A stretch of 64,000 nt of DNA from Prescottella sp. R16 (GTDB lineage: Bacteria > Actinomycetota > Actinomycetes > Mycobacteriales > Mycobacteriaceae). The DNA is taken from positions 3,782,001 through 3,846,000 of the forward strand of contig NZ_CP130943.1 in NCBI RefSeq assembly GCF_030656875.1. The letters are read 5' to 3'. A program made the position numbers and the translations under genes. Of this stretch, positions 2,993-14,278 are shown piece after piece. Under the pieces are notes generated by a model that was given only the letters and a program-made list of their open reading frames with translations, did no database searches and was not told where the DNA came from. The first letter of the stretch is position 1; every line of letters starts with the position of its first letter.

Positions 2993-4396
2993 CTAGTCCG
3001 TCGGGAACTTCTTCAGCGTGATCTTCACCAGGTCAGGGTCGAATACCTTGCGCGACTGCCCTTCCGGGATCGGCAGCACGGCCACATCGAACAACGAGGC
3101 CACCAGCACCCGGCGCTCGATCAGCGTCAGCTCGTCCCAATACCGTTGCGGGTCGTCTGTATCCACCGCGCCCACGGTCGGCTCAGGCGATGATTCCGCC
3201 TGCCGCCAAGCTGCCTCGAGCTTCGGCGTGATGCGGTCGCGGATCCGGTGAAACGTGTCCCGGTCGATCTTCTCGTCGGCGTAGTCGTCGGCTGCCTCGT
3301 CGAGCCGTGCCTGCAGCTGCCGGGCGGTGTCGAAGGCGCGTGCCTGCTCGTCGTCGGCCCGGTCACGTTTCGCCAGAGCGCGCCCTGCCTCGGTACCGAA
3401 GAACTCCACAACGGCAGCCGCTACCAACCCGTCCACGAGGTCGATACGCCGGTAAACGCACGAGTTCACGCTGCTGCAGGTGTAACTCGGTTTCGCCACC
3501 GTCGAGCGGGAAGACGCCGACAGCTTTGCCTTACACTTCCCGCACACACCGACAGCAGATAGCAGTGTCGAGGGCGCTCTGCCGAACGTCGGACGGCCCG
3601 GCGTCTTCGCGCTCAGCGCCACCACCAGACGATCATGGGTTTCGATGTCCCACAGCGGCTCCCAGGTACCGGGGATGTCGCGCCCCTTGTACCGGCGGAT
3701 ACCGGCATATACCGGCCGGGCCAGCATCTGGCGCAATGTTGCAGGACGCCAAGCGATCCCGGTCGGCGACGGCAGGCCGTCCTTGTTCAACCTCGTTGAG
3801 AGCGTGTACGCCGAACCACCGGAGAGGATGTAGTCGGCCCACTGGCGCACGAGCACGGCCGTCTCAGGATCCGTGCGCCATCCGATCAGCTTTCCGCTGT
3901 GCTCGTCCCGAACCGCACGGTAGCCGTAGGGGACTTTGCTACTCGGCTTCCCGGCCTCGGCGTGCGCCTTGATGCCGCGCATGGCTCGTCGGCGGATCTC
4001 GTCGGCCTCGTTCTCGGCAACCGCAGCGGAGAATGTGAGTGCCATCCGGTCGGCCGGGTCGGAGAGATCGTAGGTCCGGCCACCGATGCACCATTTCGAC
4101 CCCAGCTCCGAACACAGGTCACGGATGTCGACGTACTGCTGTAGCCGTCGCGAGATCCGGGACGTTTCCCACATCACCAGCACCTGGCCGGGCCGGAGGG
4201 TTCGCCGGAGCTGTTCGTAGCCGGGCCGGTAGCCGTGCTTCGTGTGCCTCGATGCGCCGATGTCGCGGTCGGTGATCTCGGCCTCGATCTCCCAGCCGTT
4301 GCGCTCGCACACGTCGCGGCACTCGGTTACCTGCTGTTCTACCGAGCGCCCGATGCCGCGATCTCGGGACACTCTCGCGTAGATGACTGCTTTCAC
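2993..4396 (-). CDS. Large serine recombinase / site-specific integrase
   Basis: A 467-residue protein from a GTG at 4396. Order: resolvase catalytic domain starting KAVIYARVSRDRGIGRSVEQ with the catalytic serine in ARVSRD; MWETSRISRRLQQYVDIRDL with the conserved arginines; DLSDPADRMALTFSAAVAEN; then the recombinase domain (VPYGYRAVRDEHSGKLIGWR, SPTGIAWRPATLRQMLARPV) and a zinc-ribbon-like region GVCGKCKAKL...YTCSS. The C-terminal half has the coiled-coil and charged tail of phage-type large serine integrases. It is the only mobile-element gene here, so this is probably the remnant of a phage or conjugative element. Its start abuts a truncated MFS gene, as expected when such an integrase sits next to its attachment site. 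Whether it is still active cannot be told. Confidence 0.9.
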   Translation of the reverse strand: MKAVIYARVSRDRGIGRSVEQQVTECRDVCERNGWEIEAEITDRDIGASRHTKHGYRPGYEQLRRTLRPGQVLVMWETSRISRRLQQYVDIRDLCSELGSKWCIGGRTYDLSDPADRMALTFSAAVAENEADEIRRRAMRGIKAHAEAGKPSSKVPYGYRAVRDEHSGKLIGWRTDPETAVLVRQWADYILSGGSAYTLSTRLNKDGLPSPTGIAWRPATLRQMLARPVYAGIRRYKGRDIPGTWEPLWDIETHDRLVVALSAKTPGRPTFGRAPSTLLSAVGVCGKCKAKLSASSRSTVAKPSYTCSSVNSCVYRRIDLVDGLVAAAVVEFFGTEAGRALAKRDRADDEQARAFDTARQLQARLDEAADDYADEKIDRDTFHRIRDRITPKLEAAWRQAESSPEPTVGAVDTDDPQRYWDELTLIERRVLVASLFDVAVLPIPEGQSRKVFDPDLVKITLKKFPTD

Positions 4397-4438
4397 CAGG
4401 TCAGCGTATCGCGTAATGACAGTATTCGATTCCTGGCC

Positions 4439-5176
4439 TGGCGGTGGTGCCTGCTGGTGAACATCCCCATCGCGCTGTTCGCGCTCGCCGTCACCGCACC
4501 CGTCGTCGAGGAGACCAAGGCCCACGGCGACACCAGCTACGACGTCCCCGGCACCGTCCTCGTCGCGGTCGGTCTCGGTTCCCTCGTGTACGGCTTCACG
4601 CAGGCCGAGAAGCACGGATGGGCGTCGGCCCAGACGATCGGGTTCATCGCCGTCGGCTCGATCGCCCTCGTTCTGTTCGTGCTCGTGGAGAAGCGGGCCG
4701 CCAACCCCCTGCTGCCGATGTCGGTGCCGTGGCACCGCAACCGCGGACCCAGCTTCCTCGCATCCGTCACGGTCGGCGCCGCCCTGCTCGGCGGCACCCT
4801 GTACCTGACGTTCTACCTGCAGATCGTCCTCGGCTTCAGCCCGTTCGTCGCCGGTCTCGCCGCCCAGCTCAGCACCCGTGTCGGGCCGAAGCTGCCGATG
4901 ACCGTCGGCCCCGTCGTCGCCGCCGCCGGACTGTTGCTGCTCTCCCGTATCGAGGTCCACGGCTCCTACTGGACCGGCGTCCTGCCCGGCCTGCTCGTGT
5001 TCGGCGCCGGACTCGGCCTGCTCATGGTGCCCATGCAGAACGTCGCCCTCGTCGGCTACTCCCAGGTCTTCCTGTGGTCGGCGGCCCTCATCGTCGTCAT
5101 CGCCCCCGTCGTCGCCGCACTCGTCCGTGCCGAAAAGCACGACCTGCCCACCGAGGGCGCCGTCGGGGCGCACTGA
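4439..5176 (+). pseudogene. MFS drug-efflux transporter (DHA2/EmrB-QacA type), truncated and internally deleted
   Basis: The reading frame enters recognisable transporter sequence at WRWCLLVNIPIALFAL, which in intact DHA2 transporters lies near the end of the first six-helix bundle, so roughly 170 N-terminal residues are missing. Two further in-frame gaps are suspected by comparison with the family. After SPFVAGLA the usual helix is lost and the frame jumps to AQLSTRVGPKLPMTVG. After GLLMVPMQNVALVG the segment normally containing the next two helices is absent, and the frame resumes at YSQVFLWSAALIVVIAPVV near the C-terminus. No stop codons interrupt the rest. The gene lies immediately beyond the recombinase start, so element insertion or excision probably removed the front part. 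Non-functional as a transporter. Confidence 0.8.
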
Positions 5177-5265: not shown

Positions 5266-6669
5266 TCAGAAGTTGATCATGTGACCGGCGAGACCGTGGA
5301 TCGCTTCCTGCAGCGCCTCCGACAGGGTCGGGTGGGTGTGCACGTTGCGGGCCAGTTCGTTGACGGTGAGGTCCCACTTCTGCGCGAGGGTGAGTTCGGG
5401 CAGGAGTTCGGAGACGTCGGGGCCGATGAGGTGGCCGCCGATGAGCTCACCGTGGGTCTTGTCGGCGATGAGCTTGACGAAGCCGGTGGGGTCGGCGAGG
5501 CCGTGGGCCTTGCCGTTCGCCATGAACGGGAAGGTGGCGACCTTGACGTCGTAGCCTTCGGCCTTGGCCTGCTCCTCGGTGAGTCCGAAGGACGCGACCT
5601 GCGGCTGGCAGAACGTGGCGCGCGGCATCATCCGGTAGTCGCCCAGTTCCATCGTCTCGGCGCCGCCGATGGTTTCGGCGGCGACGACGCCCTGCGCCTC
5701 GGCGACGTGCGCGAGCTGCAGCTTGGCGGTGACGTCACCGATGGCGTAGATGCCGGGGACGTTGGTGCGCATGCGCTCGTCGATGGCGATGGCGCCGCGG
5801 TCGGTGAGCTGCACACCGGTGTTCTCGAGGCCGTAGCCGGTGACGTTGGGGGCGAAGCCGACGGACTGCAGGACCTTGTCGACGACGACGGTCTCGACCG
5901 CGCCGGACTTGTTGTCCTTGATGGCGACGGTGACCTTGGTGCCGTCGTCGTCGATGGTCTGGACGGCGGCGCCGGTCTTGATGGTGACGCCGAGCTTCTT
6001 GTACTGCTTGGCGATCTCCTTGGAGACGTCGGCGTCCTCGTTGGGCAGGGCCCGGTCGAGGAACTCGACGATCGTGACGTCGACGCCGTAGTTCTTCAGG
6101 ACGTAGCCGAACTCCATGCCGATCGCGCCGGCACCGACGATGAGGATCGAGCCGGGCAGGTCGCGGGTGAGGATCTGCTCCTCGTAGGTGACGACGTTCT
6201 TGCTCACCGACGTGCCCGGAAGCAGCTTGGTGGTGCTGCCGGTGGCGATGATGACGTTGTCGAACGTGACCGTCTCGGTGCCGCCCTTGGTGAGGGTGAC
6301 GGAGATCGCGTTGGGTCCGGTGAACGTGCCACGGCCCTCGAACTCGTCGATCTTGTTCTTCTTCATCAGGAAGTGGACGCCCTTGACGCGGCCGTCCGCG
6401 ACCTGACGGCTGCGGTCGAATGCCGCGCCGAAGTCGAAGGTCGCCTCTCCGCTGATGCCGAAGGTCTTGGCTTCCTTGTGGAAGATGTGCGCAAGCTCGG
6501 CGTTGCGGAGAAGGGCCTTGGACGGGATGCAGCCGACGTTCAGGCAGACACCGCCCCAGTACTTCTCTTCGATGATGGCGGTCTTCAGTCCCAGCTGTGC
6601 CGCGCGGATAGCAGCGACGTACCCACCGGGACCGGCTCCGAGGACAACGACGTCATAGTGTGAGGTCAC
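5266..6669 (-). CDS. lpd: Dihydrolipoamide dehydrogenase (E3)
   Basis: A 467-residue flavoprotein that reoxidises dihydrolipoamide with NAD+ in pyruvate and 2-oxoacid dehydrogenase complexes; the mycobacterial orthologue LpdC also serves a peroxidase system. Visible features: FAD-binding [20 protein letters not shown] at the N-terminus, the redox-active disulfide in [15 protein letters not shown], the NAD-binding [14 protein letters not shown], the second FAD motif [20 protein letters not shown], and the C-terminal [13 protein letters not shown] with the catalytic His-Glu pair. Length is typical. It stands alone, with a strong hairpin behind its stop and the small-peptide cluster upstream on the same strand. 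Start ATG at 6669. Confidence 0.97.
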
Positions 6670-6812
6670 GAGGCCCTAGCCTAGTCCCGCCCGGATCGTG
6701 TGTCCCGAGATGGTCCCTACCGAAAAGTAAGATTCGAAGATCGTCTCCGGCACACCCCGGACACACCTGCAGCCCCAGCCGCCGGAGCGACTGGGGCCGG
6801 AGGTGCGAATGC

Positions 6813-6965
6813 TCAGCTGAACGAGATCGAGCTCCCGAGGTCTCCGACGGTGCTCCCGCCGAAGACGCTGCCCCTGCTGAGGCCGAGGACGATGTCGAGC
6901 AGACCCGACAGCGAACCTGTCGCCGACTCACCCAGGGAGCCGAGGTCGATAACGTCCGAGTTCAT
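6813..6965 (-). CDS. Small serine-ending peptide, 50 aa; candidate porin-type peptide
   Basis: ATG at 6965, preceded by GGAAGG about 8 bases upstream; stop at 6813. The 50-residue product begins MNSDVIDLGSLGESATG, continues with a hydrophobic stretch (SGLLDIVLGLS), and ends GSSISFS. There is no signal peptide and no cysteine. It is rich in Gly, Ser, Leu and Asp. It shares the MN.D.I start and terminal serine with the two 27-residue peptides immediately upstream on the same strand, so the three look like one family or operon. Size, lack of signal sequence and genomic position recall PorA/PorH, the alpha-helical cell-wall channel peptides of corynebacteria, whose genes are near groEL2. No sequence homology is claimed. 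Confidence 0.65.
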   Translation of the reverse strand: MNSDVIDLGSLGESATGSLSGLLDIVLGLSRGSVFGGSTVGDLGSSISFS

Positions 6966-6998
6966 GGCAGTCGCCTTCCTACTACTGGTGGTCCGAGA

Positions 6999-7082
6999 TC
7001 AGGAGAGCTCGGTGACGGAGCCGAAGTTCACGACGTTGCCGATGACGCCGATGAGGGCTGCGATGATGCCGTCGAGATTCAT
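6999..7082 (-). CDS. 27-residue peptide, copy B of a tandem pair
   Basis: ATG at 7082 with AAGGAAA seven bases upstream; TGA at 6999. The product is 27 residues, MNLDGIIAALIGVIGNVV followed by NFGSVTELS. It differs from the next upstream peptide by two conservative changes (I11V, V17L). Residues 5-18 form an amphipathic or hydrophobic helix, too short and without the charges of a secretion signal. The duplicated coding unit, each with its own good ribosome binding site, argues that it is a real gene. Role unknown; see the findings for the porin hypothesis. Confidence 0.7.
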   Translation of the reverse strand: MNLDGIIAALIGVIGNVVNFGSVTELS

Positions 7083-7126
7083 TGCGTTTCCTTACTTTCG
7101 TGGTGGTGGTACGACAGGAGAACGAA

Positions 7127-7210
7127 CTAGCTCAGTTCGGTGACGGAACCGAAGTTGACCAGGTTGCCGATGACGCCGACGAGAGCCGCGATGATGCCGT
7201 CGAGATTCAT
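7127..7210 (-). CDS. 27-residue peptide, copy A of a tandem pair
   Basis: ATG at 7210 preceded by GAAAGG at a good distance; TAG at 7127. It is 25/27 identical to the peptide encoded 44 bases further downstream. The frame could be extended upstream to a 65-residue product, but the extension has no similarity to the twin, whereas the twin starts exactly at the corresponding methionine with its own ribosome binding site, so the short start is preferred. Hydrophobic residues run from Ile6 to Val18 and the tail is NFGSVTELS. First gene of the putative three-peptide operon; promoter probably within 7211-7558. Confidence 0.7.
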   Translation of the reverse strand: MNLDGIIAALVGVIGNLVNFGSVTELS

Positions 7211-7558
7211 TTCTCTGCCTTTCGGGGGAGTTTCGATGTCCGTGATTGTCGTGTGATCTGTTTTGCCCGGGCAGGGAGCGTGCGTGCCGGGGGACCCCGC
7301 TCTCCCGGATGCCTTTGCTCCCATGACATCTCGACCGTTTCACACTCCGCACGAGGCAACAGTGGTGTGTTGCTCCGTCGGCTTTCCGGTCGAGATGACG
7401 GCCGCTTCATTTCGGCCGTGACAGAAAGGTAGACCAGTTCGTATCCACTTGTCTTCGGTTTCGTTACATCAACTGGGCAGCCGTCCAGGAAATCTTGAAA
7501 TTCACCCTCCCGCTCACCCTGGACCGCCCGGCGTATTCGACACCGCCACAATGGTGGG
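7211..7558. other. Divergent intergenic region between the small peptides and the prolyl oligopeptidase
   Basis: About 350 bases with no supported gene. It must hold the promoter of the peptide operon (reverse strand) and of the oligopeptidase (forward strand). Locally it is less GC-rich (for example 7425-7500) than the flanking genes, as expected for promoter DNA. I see no convincing operator palindrome. Confidence 0.5.
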
Positions 7559-9694
7559 ATGACGGGACCTACGACGCACTCACCTTCCACTCTGCCGGCC
7601 GACGATCCGAACCTGTGGCTCGAGGACGTCACCGGCGACGACGCCCTCGCGTGGGTTCGCGAGCACAACGAGCAGACCGTCGCGGCGTTCACCGCCACCG
7701 ACGAGTTCACCCGGCTCGAGACCGGGATCCGCACGATCCTCGACACCGATGCCCGCATCCCCTATGTGCGTCGGCGCGGCGACTACCTCTACAACTTCTG
7801 GCGCGACGCCCGACACGTCCGCGGACTGTGGCGTCGTACCACGATGGACGAATACCGCAGCGACACAACGGAATGGGAGATCCTCGTCGACGTCGACGAG
7901 CTTGCCGAGCGCGAGGGCGAGAACTGGGTGTGGTCGGGTGCGCAGGTGCTGCGCCCCGAGCAGGACCGGGCACTGATCAGCCTGTCCCGCGGTGGCGCCG
8001 ACGCCGTCGTCGTCCGCGAGTTCGATCTCACCACCGGCACGTTCGACGACACCGCGACCGGCTTCCACACCGACGAGGCGAAAACCGACATCGGTTGGAT
8101 CGACAGCGAAAACATCTACATCGGAACGGATTTCGGCGAAGGATCTCTCACCGACTCCGGTTACCCGCGGATCGCGAAGCGCTGGCACCGCGGCACTCCG
8201 CTCGCCGACGCGGTCACGGTGTTCGAGGGCGAACGAACCGATGTCGCGGTCTCGGCATGGCACGACAGCACCCCCGGCTTCGAACGGAGCTTCGTCGAAC
8301 GCGCCGTCGACTTCTACACGTCGCAGCGCTTCCAGATCCGCGGCGACGGCACCCTGGCGCGTATCGACACCCCCGAGGACGCCCGGATCTCCGTCTACCG
8401 CGAGTGGCTGCTGATCCGACCCCGCTCACCGTGGACCGTCGACGGCACCACCCACCCGGCCGGCTCGCTGCTGGCCGCGCGGTACGACGCCTATCTCGCC
8501 GGCGACCGCACGTTGACCACCCTGTTCACCCCCGACGAGCACACGTCGCTCGAACAGTACGCGTGGACCCGCCACCACCTGCTCCTCGTGACGCTCACCG
8601 ATGTCCGCTCCGCCGTCCACGTTCTCACCCCGAACGAAAACGGTTGGGAGAAAACCACTCTCGATGGACTCCCGGCGATGACATCCACCGAGATCATCGA
8701 CACCGACCCGCGCGAGAGCGACGACTTCTTCCTCAACGCGAGTGGATACCTCACTCCGGCGACCCTCGTGCACGGCACCGTCGGCGGCCCACTCGAGGCC
8801 CTGAAGGCTGCGCCCGAATTCTTCGACACCACCGGACTGTCCGTGACGCAGCACTTCGCGACCTCCGACGACGGCACCCGCGTCCCGTACTTCGTGGTGC
8901 GCCGCGACGACGCCCCCGCCGGCCCCACCCTGCTCTACGGGTACGGCGGCTTCGAGAACTCGCTGACCCCCGCCTACAGCGGCATCACCGGCACCGCGTG
9001 GCTGCAACGCGGCGGCACCTACGTCGTCGCGAACATCCGTGGCGGCGGCGAGTACGGCCCGGAGTGGCACACGCAGGCCGTCCGCGAGGGCCGGCACCTC
9101 GTGTACGAGGACTTCGCCGCCGTGGCCCGCGACCTCGTCGCCCGCGGCATCACCACGCCCGCACAGTTGGGCGCACAGGGCGGCAGCAACGGTGGGCTGC
9201 TGATGGGCGTCATGCTCACCACGTACCCGGAGTTGTTCGGCGCGATCGTCTGCCAGGTGCCGCTCCTGGACATGAAGCGCTACCACCTGCTGCTCGCGGG
9301 CGCGTCGTGGACGGCCGAGTACGGCGACCCCGACAATCCCGACGACTGGGCGTTCATCTCCGAGTACTCGCCGTACCAGAATGTGCGCGCCGACGCAGAC
9401 ATGGACGTGCGGTACCCACCGATCCTCATCGCCACCTCCACCCGCGACGACCGCGTCCACCCCGGACACGCCCGCAAGATGACGGCCCGGTTGGAGTCCG
9501 AGGGCCATCCCGTCCACTACTACGAGAACATCGAGGGCGGCCACGGCGGCGCCGCCGACAATGCGCAGGCCGCGTTCAAGTCGGCGCTGACCTACACGTT
9601 CCTGTGGGATCACCTGGCGAAACCGTCTTCGGACATCGAGCGCGTGGACTACGATTCGCCCGAATCCGTCAAATCGAATCGAGCCACCACATGA
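7559..9694 (+). CDS. Prolyl oligopeptidase family serine peptidase (S9)
   Basis: A 711-residue cytosolic-type peptidase with no signal peptide. The N-terminal segment DPNLWLEDVTGDDALAWVRE is the family's opening helix. It is followed by a seven-blade propeller region (residues ~70-430) and the alpha/beta hydrolase domain. The catalytic serine is in GAQGGSNGGLLMG near residue 543, aspartate in STRDDRVHPGHARK near 630 and histidine in IEGGHGGAAD near 660. The family cleaves after proline in short peptides. M. tuberculosis has a homologue (Rv0457c) in the same gene neighbourhood. Its stop overlaps the start of the mycoloyltransferase-like gene by four bases (ATGA), so the two are translationally coupled. 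Confidence 0.92.
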   Translation: MTGPTTHSPSTLPADDPNLWLEDVTGDDALAWVREHNEQTVAAFTATDEFTRLETGIRTILDTDARIPYVRRRGDYLYNFWRDARHVRGLWRRTTMDEYRSDTTEWEILVDVDELAEREGENWVWSGAQVLRPEQDRALISLSRGGADAVVVREFDLTTGTFDDTATGFHTDEAKTDIGWIDSENIYIGTDFGEGSLTDSGYPRIAKRWHRGTPLADAVTVFEGERTDVAVSAWHDSTPGFERSFVERAVDFYTSQRFQIRGDGTLARIDTPEDARISVYREWLLIRPRSPWTVDGTTHPAGSLLAARYDAYLAGDRTLTTLFTPDEHTSLEQYAWTRHHLLLVTLTDVRSAVHVLTPNENGWEKTTLDGLPAMTSTEIIDTDPRESDDFFLNASGYLTPATLVHGTVGGPLEALKAAPEFFDTTGLSVTQHFATSDDGTRVPYFVVRRDDAPAGPTLLYGYGGFENSLTPAYSGITGTAWLQRGGTYVVANIRGGGEYGPEWHTQAVREGRHLVYEDFAAVARDLVARGITTPAQLGAQGGSNGGLLMGVMLTTYPELFGAIVCQVPLLDMKRYHLLLAGASWTAEYGDPDNPDDWAFISEYSPYQNVRADADMDVRYPPILIATSTRDDRVHPGHARKMTARLESEGHPVHYYENIEGGHGGAADNAQAAFKSALTYTFLWDHLAKPSSDIERVDYDSPESVKSNRATT

Positions 9695-10755
9695 CCTCCG
9701 AGGACCTTCCAGACTCCCCGGCCTCCCCGTGTCCCCTGTTCCGGCGCCTCGGCGCGGGGGCCCTCGTCACCGCGACCGCGGCGGCCGCACTGCTCACCGC
9801 GGCACCCGTCGCCGCGGCCGGCGGCATCCCGAACACCGCCCCGGCCGCACAACCGGCGGACCCGGCGGCGTCCGGTGCTCACATCACCCGCGTCGAACCC
9901 ATCACCGACCGGTGGGTGCGGGTGTTCGTGTACTCGCCCGCGATGCAGGCCGAGCAGCAGGTGCAGGTTCTGCTGCCGCGCGACACGACCGCCCCGCGGC
10001 CGACGCTGTACCTGCTCGACGGCAGTTCCGCCGACCCCGGTACCAACAACTGGACCGAGGAGGGCGGGGCCGTCGAGTTCTTCGAGGACAAGCCCGTCAA
10101 CGTCGTCCTCCCCACCGGCGGTGAGGCCAGCTACTACACCGACTGGGAGCGCCCCGACCCGAAGCTCGGCAACTACCGGTGGGAGACGTTCCTGACGAAG
10201 GAACTGCCGCCGCTGATCGACGCCCGATTCGACGGCACCGGCGTCCAGTCGATCGCCGGACTGTCGATGGGAGCACAGTCCGCGATGATGCTCGCGATGC
10301 GTGCGAACGGCTTCTACCGCGGTGTCGCGGCGTTCAGCGGGTGCTACCAGACCGTCGACGACCTCGGCTTCACCCAGATGCGGGCCACCGTGTCGTACCG
10401 CGGCGGCGACATCACCAACATGTGGGGGCCGCGCACCGATCCGCAGTGGGCCGAGCACGACGTACTGATCGGCGCCGAGAAACTACGCGGAACCGTGCTG
10501 TACGTGTCGACGGCCACCGGACTGCCCGGGCCGAACGAAACCCTCGACAACCCGAACCTGCCGCTGCTGCTGGCACTGGGCGCGCCGATCGAGGCCGTCA
10601 CCGATCACTGCACGCACCGCCTCGACGACCGACTGCGGTCGCTCGGTATCCCGGCGACGTTCGTCTACAACCCGGTCGGCGTCCACACGTGGCCGTACTG
10701 GCGGGAGGAACTGCCGAAGTCGTGGCCGACGCTCGCGGCGTCGCTCGGCGTCTGA
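9691..10755 (+). CDS. Mycoloyltransferase / antigen-85-type esterase, secreted
   Basis: A 354-residue precursor from the ATG at 9691. A twin-arginine-free signal segment (FRRLGAGALVTATAAAALLT, ending AAPVAAAG) precedes the mature alpha/beta hydrolase. Family marks: VQVLLPRDTTAPRPTLYLLD, the substrate loop NNWTEEGGAVEFFEDKPVNV, the nucleophile serine in IAGLSMGAQSAMMLA and the C-terminal histidine in VGVHTWPYWREELPKSWP, equivalent to the HSWEYW of antigen 85. Enzymes of this family move mycolic acids between trehalose, arabinogalactan and, for corynebacterial MytC, serine residues of small proteins. It is coupled to the oligopeptidase and flanked by genes for tiny serine-rich peptides, which makes protein mycolation an attractive but untested role. 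Confidence 0.88.
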   Translation: MTSEDLPDSPASPCPLFRRLGAGALVTATAAAALLTAAPVAAAGGIPNTAPAAQPADPAASGAHITRVEPITDRWVRVFVYSPAMQAEQQVQVLLPRDTTAPRPTLYLLDGSSADPGTNNWTEEGGAVEFFEDKPVNVVLPTGGEASYYTDWERPDPKLGNYRWETFLTKELPPLIDARFDGTGVQSIAGLSMGAQSAMMLAMRANGFYRGVAAFSGCYQTVDDLGFTQMRATVSYRGGDITNMWGPRTDPQWAEHDVLIGAEKLRGTVLYVSTATGLPGPNETLDNPNLPLLLALGAPIEAVTDHCTHRLDDRLRSLGIPATFVYNPVGVHTWPYWREELPKSWPTLAASLGV

Positions 10756-10780
10756 GCGCGCCCGGTTTCCGAACGGACGA

Positions 10781-10820
10781 GAAGGGCGGTACCGGTGCAC
10801 GTGCACCGGTACCGCCCTTC
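10781..10820. terminator. Bidirectional terminator: perfect 40-base palindrome
   Basis: Positions 10781-10800 and 10801-10820 are exact reverse complements with no loop bases. It lies between the mycoloyltransferase gene and the converging small peptide gene at 10844. Confidence 0.92.
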
Positions 10821-10843
10821 TTCGATGCTCCGAGGAGCCGGTA

Positions 10844-10984
10844 TCAGCTGAGCGAGCTCAGGGAGCCGAGCGAACCGGTCGAGGTCGAATCGCCACCGTC
10901 CGAGCTGCCCGAACCGATCTTGTTCAGCTGCTCGAGAATGGTGGTGAAGGACTTCAGGATGCTGATGATCTCGGTCGAACCCAT
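10844..10984 (-). CDS. Small serine-rich peptide, 46 aa; candidate porin-type peptide
   Basis: ATG at 10984 with AGGGAG about seven bases upstream; stop at 10844, beside the shared palindrome terminator. The product starts MGSTEIISILKSFTTILEQL, a good amphipathic helix, followed by a low-complexity Gly/Ser/Thr/Asp tail ending GSLSSLS. There is no signal peptide or cysteine. The frame can be extended upstream, but that part is basic and unlike the rest. Length, helix-plus-tail design and location a few genes from groEL2 resemble corynebacterial PorH/PorA, and the terminal serines could accept mycolates. It is separate from the other three peptides but shares their serine terminus. Similarity is of kind, not proven homology. 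Confidence 0.68.
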   Translation of the reverse strand: MGSTEIISILKSFTTILEQLNKIGSGSSDGGDSTSTGSLGSLSSLS

Positions 10985-11135
10985 GATTGACTCCCTGCAA
11001 TTACTGGTGGTGTGGCGCCTCGAAGCGAATGCGCTGCGGCCAATATAACGACCGGAACGCGGTCTGGCATCGATTTGGCGCATGAATGCGGGATGAAATA
11101 TCGGGGTGATGCCCGAAGGGAGGATTCGGGGAACG

Positions 11136-11972
11136 TCACTGCTGGTCACGGAGCCAGGCGACGATCCGATCCACGGTACTTTCGGGTGTCCGGATCCAGC
11201 CGTTGTGCCCTAGCTTTTCGGGCTGATGCCAGGTAGTGACGCTCGCACCGGACAATTTACGCAGTAGGTTCTCCGTCGACTGCTGGGGCGCCAGATCGTC
11301 CCCCTCGATCGAGATCGACAGCACCGGCACCGACAGTTGCGCGAGCCGCTCCTCGTAGTCGATGTCCGCCCCCGACGGCTCGATCCGCCCCGACCGCGCG
11401 AACCGCGACCAGTCCGAGATCAGCACCCGCGACTGCCGTCCGAAACCACCGACGTCCAGACGGTCGCCCGGCCAGAAACCCGCGACACTCGCGGTGATCG
11501 ACATCGCCGCGGAGCCGAGCAGCAGCCCCGGAGACCGCGCCCCCGAGAATCCCCGGTAGTACGGCGACCCGGACGCCACCAGGATCAGCCCACCCAGCGC
11601 ACCCCGGATCCGGGCCGCGTACATCGCCCCCAACTGGCCACCCATGCTGTGCCCCAACAGGAACGGGGTGCTCGAATCGAACCGCTCGTGCACCGCCTCG
11701 ACGATCGCCGGCAGGTCCACCGACACCAGTTCCTGATAACCGAACGTGCTCGACGCGTTCGGCCGCGGCCGGCTGTCACCCTGTCCCCGCAACTCCCCCA
11801 CCGCAGCGCAGAATCCGCGGTCGACGATCGACTCCGCGAACCGGTCGTAGAAACCGGCCGGGATCCCCAACCCGGGAACGATCACCACGACGGGTGCGCC
11901 CTCCGGACCGGGAAACAGACGCACCGGCGTCGTCGTCCCGTCGGGCATCTGGATCGGCACGGTCTCCACCAC
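11136..11972 (-). CDS. Alpha/beta hydrolase (serine aminopeptidase/lysophospholipase type)
   Basis: A 278-residue soluble hydrolase from a GTG or ATG-type start at 11972. Fold markers: VVVIVPGLGIPAGFYDRFAE (oxyanion strand), the GELRGQGDSRPRP loop and the nucleophile elbow PFLLGHSMGGQLGAMYAA. The acid is probably in SISIEGDDLAPQQ and the histidine in HQPEKLGHNGWIRTPE near residue 255. The overall pattern matches the monoacylglycerol-lipase/Hydrolase_4 group, acting on esters. No signal peptide, so cytosolic. It runs alone on the reverse strand. Substrate unknown. Confidence 0.82.
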   Translation of the reverse strand: MVETVPIQMPDGTTTPVRLFPGPEGAPVVVIVPGLGIPAGFYDRFAESIVDRGFCAAVGELRGQGDSRPRPNASSTFGYQELVSVDLPAIVEAVHERFDSSTPFLLGHSMGGQLGAMYAARIRGALGGLILVASGSPYYRGFSGARSPGLLLGSAAMSITASVAGFWPGDRLDVGGFGRQSRVLISDWSRFARSGRIEPSGADIDYEERLAQLSVPVLSISIEGDDLAPQQSTENLLRKLSGASVTTWHQPEKLGHNGWIRTPESTVDRIVAWLRDQQ

Positions 11973-12199: not shown

Positions 12200-12400
12200 A
12201 TGACCTCCAGCGAATCGCCCCGCCCCTTCGTCCGCTCCCGCAACCAGCGCATGCTCGCCGGAGTGTGTGGCGGCATCGCCGAGTACTTCGGCGTCGACGC
12301 CAACATCGTCCGCGTCCTCGCCGTCCTCGGCGCGTTCGCGTCGTTCGGCACCGTTGCCCTCGTCTACGCCGCCGCGTGGATGCTGATGCCCGACGCGTGA
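12200..12400 (+). CDS. PspC-domain small membrane protein
   Basis: A 66-residue protein from the ATG at 12200. It is almost entirely a PspC domain: RSRNQRMLAGVCGGIAEYFG, then VDANIVRVLAVLGAFASFGT and a transmembrane helix ending AAAWMLMPDA. Stand-alone PspC proteins in actinobacteria are inner-membrane proteins linked to envelope stress. Longer upstream starts exist in frame but the usual N-terminus of the family is only 10-15 residues before RMLAGVCGG, so this start fits. Followed by a strong hairpin shared with groEL2. Confidence 0.88.
   Translation: MTSSESPRPFVRSRNQRMLAGVCGGIAEYFGVDANIVRVLAVLGAFASFGTVALVYAAAWMLMPDA

Positions 12401-12488: not shown

Positions 12489-14278
<1,790 letters not shown>

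Follow-up and report, generated by a model that had tools for sequence, protein, structure and literature searches.

Four small leaderless peptide genes near groEL2 in Prescottella and their possible likeness to corynebacterial mycomembrane peptides

The interval from lpd to groEL2 in a 64,000-nucleotide stretch of DNA (the window), taken from a 4.57-Mb Prescottella genome (Rhodococcus equi group), contains four small frames on the minus strand, in the order C, B, A, D. The original prediction held that these are tiny genes, each with its own ribosome binding site, that encode short porins next to the enzyme that modifies them. We find that all four frames are real genes, conserved across the genus and under purifying selection, and that their products (27, 27, 50 and 46 residues for A, B, C and D) share a C-terminal motif closing in serine. 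The reading that we prefer, at about an even balance of belief and doubt, is that of a set of leaderless mycomembrane micropeptides encoded here throughout the genus, resembling ProtX and PorH in kind and possibly mycolated on serine.

Four conserved small genes

The peptide genes, each recognised as an open reading frame (ORF), are as follows.

6813-6965, minus strand: peptide C, 50 amino acids (aa), Ser/Gly-rich, ending GSSISFS
6999-7082, minus strand: peptide B, 27 aa, ending GSVTELS, a tandem copy of A (71/84 nucleotides identical to A)
7127-7210, minus strand: peptide A, 27 aa, hydrophobic, ending GSVTELS (ribosome site GAAAGG)
10844-10984, minus strand: peptide D, 46 aa, amphipathic N-terminal helix and Ser/Gly tail, ending GSLSSLS

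Conservation of the frames in related genomes had been set beforehand as a check, and each type was recovered in all 14 genomes of the genus. The A/B-type frame is 27 aa long, or 26 aa in G002, G004 and G006, and is present in one to three copies per genome at the locus (G001 has GTG as the start codon of its third copy); an extra copy lies elsewhere in seven genomes (G004, G005, G007, G008, G009, G010 and G012), the genome of the window not being among them. None of the 34 A/B-type places in the 14 genomes has an internal stop. The C type was found by search, most weakly in G009 (E 9.9e-6), where it is 33 aa long, and the D type by profile, a single-sequence search recovering it in 12 of the 14. 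Shine-Dalgarno-like sites precede A, B, C and D as well as 51 compared gene copies in the loci of the relatives, as first proposed for the four window genes.

The codon pattern was also expected to show selection, and it does. Against the nearest relative (G012) the ratio of nonsynonymous to synonymous differences (pN/pS) is 0.28 for A and B together, 0.12 for C and 0.41 for D; pooling of genome pairs gives 0.58 for the first A/B copy (11 of the 14 genomes), 0.37 for C (14) and 0.68 for D (10 of 14). Comparison of A-D with Pfam and NCBIfam gave no family match, apart from a meaningless match to MoeB. High expression was considered from codon usage and set aside, as the values for A, B, C and D (0.79, 0.78, 0.60 and 0.68) are not distinctive against a median of 0.68, with a 95th percentile of 0.84 for 26-codon pieces in a reference made of pieces of three neighbouring genes. 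The computed average masses are 2717.1 Da for each of A and B with the initial Met and 2585.9 Da without it, 4833.3 Da for C and 4565.0 Da for D.

Upstream of these genes no promoter match was found in 6650-7600, and D is preceded by one weak match. The sequence CACCAC occurs upstream of the start (45 nucleotides upstream of B, D and other peptides) in 28 of 51 locus peptide genes and in 3 of 117 longer ORFs, counts that are not independent because the 51 peptide genes are related.

The C-terminal motif and the form of the peptides

All four window peptides end G-S-x-x-x-[L/F]-S. The broader ending GSxxx[LIMFV]S is found in 4 of the 298 ATG frames of 20-60 codons in the window, which are exactly A-D, and in none of 1836 small ORFs in 400 kb elsewhere in the genome (20 control stretches, four over mycoloyltransferase or MspA genes and the rest spread over the chromosome); the associated Fisher p of 0.0004 is post hoc. 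When the genes of the relatives were read without imposing a pattern, the motif appeared in all 33 A/B-type genes read (34 were found, the second G010 copy being left out), and GSxxx[hydrophobic]S in 14/14 C genes.

A signal peptide had been predicted to be lacking, and reading of the sequences agrees, as none of A-D has a basic N-terminus. K, R and H are wholly absent from A and B, the first basic residue is R31 in C and K11 in D, and the net charge of all four peptides is negative. The hydrophobic moment of D is 0.58, a value equalled by none of 2000 shuffles, and its model has a helix over residues 2-25, with mean predicted local distance difference test (pLDDT) scores of 88 for residues 1-10 and 94 for residues 11-20, followed by a low-confidence Ser/Gly tail. 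For A, B and C, amphipathicity was equalled by 100, 90 and 420 of 2000 whole-peptide shuffles. The AlphaFold2 single-sequence model of C is mostly helical at low confidence (mean pLDDT 68), and profile comparison of C revealed nothing shared with A/B past the first six residues and nothing shared with D.

Relation to corynebacterial peptides and to the surrounding genes

PorA and PorH of Corynebacterium (with PorACj and PorACur) are, like A-D, tiny, leaderless and of helix type, with their own ribosome sites, and like them they belong to a mycolate-bearing family and are encoded in the region downstream of groEL2, on its strand; the lengths of A-D all lie under the limit of about 60 aa associated with PorA/PorH. 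Mycolation has been located at Ser56 of the 57 residues of PorH and at Ser37, the last but one, of ProtX, and PorB and PorH have like ends (PMC5310785). The mapped O-mycoloylation sites lie in Ser/Gly-rich, flexible stretches (PMC11066868), and PorA, PorH and ProtX carry no signal sequence, their route across the plasma membrane being described as unexplained (PMC12632848). Corynebacterial channels of 40 and 37 aa have been reported at the groEL2 locus, where a porA BLAST missed them (PMC3792995, PMC5944148). For Rhodococcus or Prescottella, no paper about short peptides of porin-like type came up among the open-access titles listed, several of the listings being cut short. ProtX (Cg2875), which resembles A-D in being very small and leaderless, is predicted to be helical (PMC9671496); its mycolated serine is penultimate (PMC5310785), whereas in A-D the candidate serine closes the chain and belongs to a longer motif, a comparison that uses published descriptions of ProtX. 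A-D differ from PorA/PorH in showing no detectable sequence relationship to them, in that two of the four are only 27 aa long, in the GSxxx[hydrophobic]S end, in having other genes before groEL2, and in coexisting with MspA porins.

The neighbouring genes in this interval are listed below.

5266-6669, minus strand: lpd, dihydrolipoyl dehydrogenase type, downstream of C (Pfam; adjoins C in 13/13 relatives)
7559-9694, plus strand: ptrB-type prolyl oligopeptidase of family S9 (Pfam PF00326/PF02897)
9691-10755, plus strand: mycoloyltransferase of Ag85/Cmt type with an export-signal-like N-terminus (PF00756, 1.7e-33)
11136-11972, minus strand: alpha/beta hydrolase (abh), between D and groEL2 (Pfam; at the locus in 13 relatives, partial in L039 at the end of the stretch)
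12200-12400, plus strand: small PspC-domain protein (PF04024, 1.7e-24)
12489-14114, minus strand: groEL2 (PF00118, 5.1e-74)

Between A and D, on the plus strand, the oligopeptidase gene is thus followed by the mycoloyltransferase gene (myt), whose start at 9691 overlaps the ptrB stop codon (9692-9694), so that the coupled pair flanked by peptide genes is as predicted. The distances to groEL2 given at the outset are also right: D starts 1.5 kb downstream of it on the same strand, the gap being occupied by abh and pspC, and A-C lie 5.3-5.7 kb away. The part of groEL2 inside the stretch compared is 97.9-99.8% identical in 11 of 13 relatives, the G007 and G009 stretches ending before the gene. No transporter gene was recognised by Pfam among the neighbours from lpd to groEL2. 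Further out, 2993-5173 encodes a large serine recombinase (Resolvase and Recombinase domains, Pfam), beside which 4235-5176 looks by eye like part of a membrane transporter, with no Pfam match; the recombinase is perhaps an element inserted into the transporter gene.

The place beside groEL2 can be compared with that of short peptides in other genera. In three genomes of genus g3 (G015, G065 and G132), groEL2 is followed after 0.6-1.7 kb by short leaderless peptides encoded on its strand; G015 and G065, though not G132, exceed the PorH cut-off, from which we infer that these two are Corynebacterium. In G016, of genus g4, the order groEL2, three short peptides, myt, abh, ptrB, lpd comprises the Prescottella neighbour set, with its peptides also in the 0.6-1.7 kb range downstream of groEL2 on the same strand, one of them matching PorACj weakly and below cut-off (E 0.0097). 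No peptide of such a type was seen beside groEL2 in G021 and G017, and among lpd-centred stretches of 13 genomes of other genera, filtered by ribosome site and composition, peptides were found only in G016. A niche shared by the Prescottella peptides and those of PorA/PorH type is likely. At L109:13044-15465 of G015, lpd stands next to two mycoloyltransferase genes of Cmt1-like type, with 53% and 49% identity to Cmt1.

The mycoloyltransferase of the window is assigned to the Ag85/Cmt family by PF00756 and by its motifs, and its best solved-structure match is Cmt1/MytC (4h18, 1.2e-62). In the alignment with Cmt1 its GLSMG and HTW fall opposite GMSMS and HSW, and we take these to be the nucleophile and histidine motifs with a catalytic role. 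The locus enzymes form a Prescottella clade of their own in the tree, apart from Cmt1/MytC (support 99/97), and when Cmt1 is compared with the genome of the window the locus enzyme is third of nine (7.9e-63), two paralogues, at C1:2300186 and C1:1022533, scoring higher (1.4e-81 and 4.5e-74).

The profile of A/B matches 14 of 301 genomes of the family, which are those of one genus out of 31, and none of the 287 outside it at E ≤ 0.05. The D profile matches 18 further genomes at this threshold. Two of these matches, in genus g21 (E 2.6e-5 and 7.4e-5), are short GTG-started frames with a ribosome site and are convincing; those in G090 and G074 of the same genus (0.0066 and 0.0345) are short frames with ribosome sites and are plausible, and in genus g23 the matches in G105 and G244 (0.016 and 0.045) lie inside clusters of four short peptides. 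Most of the remaining D-profile matches outside the genus lie in long frames and look like chance, and the weak matches to C in 14 genomes outside it (E 0.003-0.05), mostly long unrelated frames, were likewise taken as chance.

Other short peptides were noted along the way. The g23 clusters, at L202:7890-8850 and L204:7978-8940, each comprise four short leaderless peptides with Ser/Gly-rich ends. In the genome of the window, flanked by genes for a TetR-type regulator and an enoyl-CoA hydratase, L240:5635-5772 (plus strand, C1 about 3625635) encodes a leaderless peptide of 45 aa (MGSAEVLPYVKFF...), also preceded by CACCAC. This peptide itself matches nothing. Its relative in G074 (L203:7819), which is syntenic and 46% identical, gives a weak, below-cut-off match to the PorA family at E 0.0038 (17.2 of 50 bits). 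The L240 and G074 peptides, together with the D-type relatives in other genera, suggest that such peptides may form a wider class. The genome of the window also encodes, at L233:18806 on the minus strand and with a ribosome site, a leaderless product of 48 aa that is rich in Gly and Ser (MSISALFSALLNAMFGG...). An extra 43-aa peptide stands between A and the oligopeptidase at L037:7373 and L040:5833, 58% identical between G007 and G010, the two genomes without an intact locus mycoloyltransferase. In G005, L206:7512 encodes a 30-aa peptide (MDLSFLSEFFGAFSDLFGALDFFSGSAGAI) with a below-cut-off PorH match (E 0.03), and a mycoloyltransferase gene is located in the same 16-kb stretch.

Competing explanations and meaning

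A-D probably function like ProtX and PorH. Their export would follow the signal-less route that PorA, PorH and ProtX take through the plasma membrane, after which a mycoloyltransferase, not necessarily the adjacent one, would esterify at least one serine near the C-terminus with mycolate. The acyl chain and the helix would then anchor each product in the mycomembrane, making it a surface component of the ProtX or PorH kind, and helical oligomers may form there with A/B as membrane-spanning helices and D as the amphipathic partner. Acylation at the terminal motif may reasonably be proposed, and pore formation less firmly.

Several observations weigh against this reading, and we take them together. 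Single distant pairs give pN/pS values up to 0.80 (A and B) and 0.86 (D), and the spacers are conserved about as much as the peptide frames, so that the evidence for genes lies in the bias towards synonymous changes, the uninterrupted frames, their starts and length changes in whole codons, not in conservation of the DNA. The motif was defined after looking, which is what makes its statistics post hoc. D has the exact motif in 6 of 14 genomes and a terminal serine in 11; the terminal serine claimed for every product therefore applies to the window peptides but not to D across the genus. An amphipathic helix is borne out for D, but the amphipathicity of A and B is weak and that of C is not unusual.

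The comparisons with the known families point the same way. Searches of A-D with the NCBIfam models for PorA, PorH and PorACj (NF033938, NF033925 and NF038022) gave no match at E ≤ 10, profile-profile comparison with PorA/PorH gave a probability below 1%, and the cut-off of NF033938 is exceeded in none of 21 genomes (13 of the genus, the genome of the window included) and in one of 14 control genomes. Since the PorH model gives below-cut-off matches in E. coli and B. subtilis, matches of this kind carry little weight. Compared with Prescottella, G016 has myt and abh in swapped order and myt on the other strand, its enzyme is 53% identical to the paralogue L143 of the window's genome and 35% identical to the window enzyme, and the D profile finds no match there. 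Homology of A-D to known porins was rejected, none having been found by sequence or, for A, B and D, against solved structures, and by any sequence criterion tested the peptides are not members of the PorA/PorH family. Of the proposed equivalence to PorA and PorH there remain conserved, leaderless, helix-type peptides downstream of groEL2 on the same strand with Ser/Gly-rich ends, but not sequence homology.

The adjacent enzyme and the porins already present in the genus count similarly. In G010 no enzyme match is left at the locus and in G007 only residues 225-354, and A, B, C and D are kept in both; the pairing of enzyme and peptides is thus not obligatory, and the locus enzyme as dedicated modifier is rejected as a general statement. 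The split myt of G003 was not counted because the ptrB of this genome is split too and its assembly is 79% complete. Together with the third rank of the locus enzyme against Cmt1, this leaves unsupported the claim that the peptides have their own modifying enzyme; one of the other eight family members in the genome could act on them instead. MspA-family porins, which are established mycomembrane channels of related species (PMC9233653), occur in all 14 Prescottella genomes and in 233 of 301 genomes of the family, with no g3 or g4 genome among the matches listed. In Rhodococcus and Nocardia they are much larger, Sec-exported beta proteins, unrelated to A-D and separate from them in the same genomes. 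Prescottella therefore need not depend on A-D as pores, and the idea that these peptides fill a missing porin niche is rejected.

The alternative closest to the original prediction is that A/B, and with them D, are true mycolated porins, oligomerising into helical water-filled channels after mycolation by the adjacent enzyme. The genomic region and the design of the peptides resemble those of PorA/PorH loci, R. equi cell walls are reported to contain two channel-forming proteins (so the title of a work cited by PMC9233653) and, according to PMC9233653 itself, an anion-selective channel, and channel peptides of only 37 aa are known from corynebacteria (PMC5944148). At 27 aa, A and B are shorter than the channel peptides of the cited literature, and MspA porins and an adjacent enzyme that is missing or truncated in two peptide-intact genomes, and is not the best Cmt1 match, both speak against such channels, which we regard as improbable though worth keeping in mind. 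Rather less probable is a role as non-acylated structural or adhesive mycomembrane peptides that determine surface properties or serve as phage receptors. ProtX is a likely phage receptor, with little otherwise known of its function (PMC9671496), and the A/B copy number at the locus varies from one to three, but in A, B and C the serine motif at the C-terminus is fixed, which suggests a signal for processing or attachment.

Two further explanations place the peptides outside the mycomembrane. A and B, being hydrophobic, 27 aa long and tandemly duplicated, recall inner-membrane micropeptides such as type I toxins, some families of which occur as tandem copies, or stress peptides; this is very unlikely in view of the C-terminal motif that they share with C and D, the absence of positive charge in A and B, the same location in 14/14 genomes and the lack of any Rfam match (described RNA families only) on either strand of 6600-11200 at E ≤ 1. 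Secreted leaderless surfactants in the style of phenol-soluble modulins, or bacteriocin-like peptides, are suggested by the strongly amphipathic leaderless helix of D, but are the least probable, as all four peptides are net negative, no transporter gene lies between lpd and groEL2, and the location is again the same throughout the genus.

We return, then, to ProtX/PorH-like micropeptides as the preferred reading. More broadly, and tentatively, Prescottella and related rhodococci may possess a repertoire of leaderless mycomembrane micropeptides parallel to MspA, in which the GSxxx[hydrophobic]S tag would be the first recognisable signal for O-mycoloylation, or for another form of mycomembrane attachment, outside Corynebacterium, A and B would be the smallest such proteins, and some members might be the small channel of the R. 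equi wall. The lack of any Pfam or NCBIfam family for A-D suggests that in rhodococci small envelope genes easily escape notice. With a second set of such peptides, evolving differently and ending in a fixed motif, found in an MspA-bearing genus, comparison would make three questions testable: which feature the transferase recognises, what signal directs export, and whether the peptides act as pores or as anchors.

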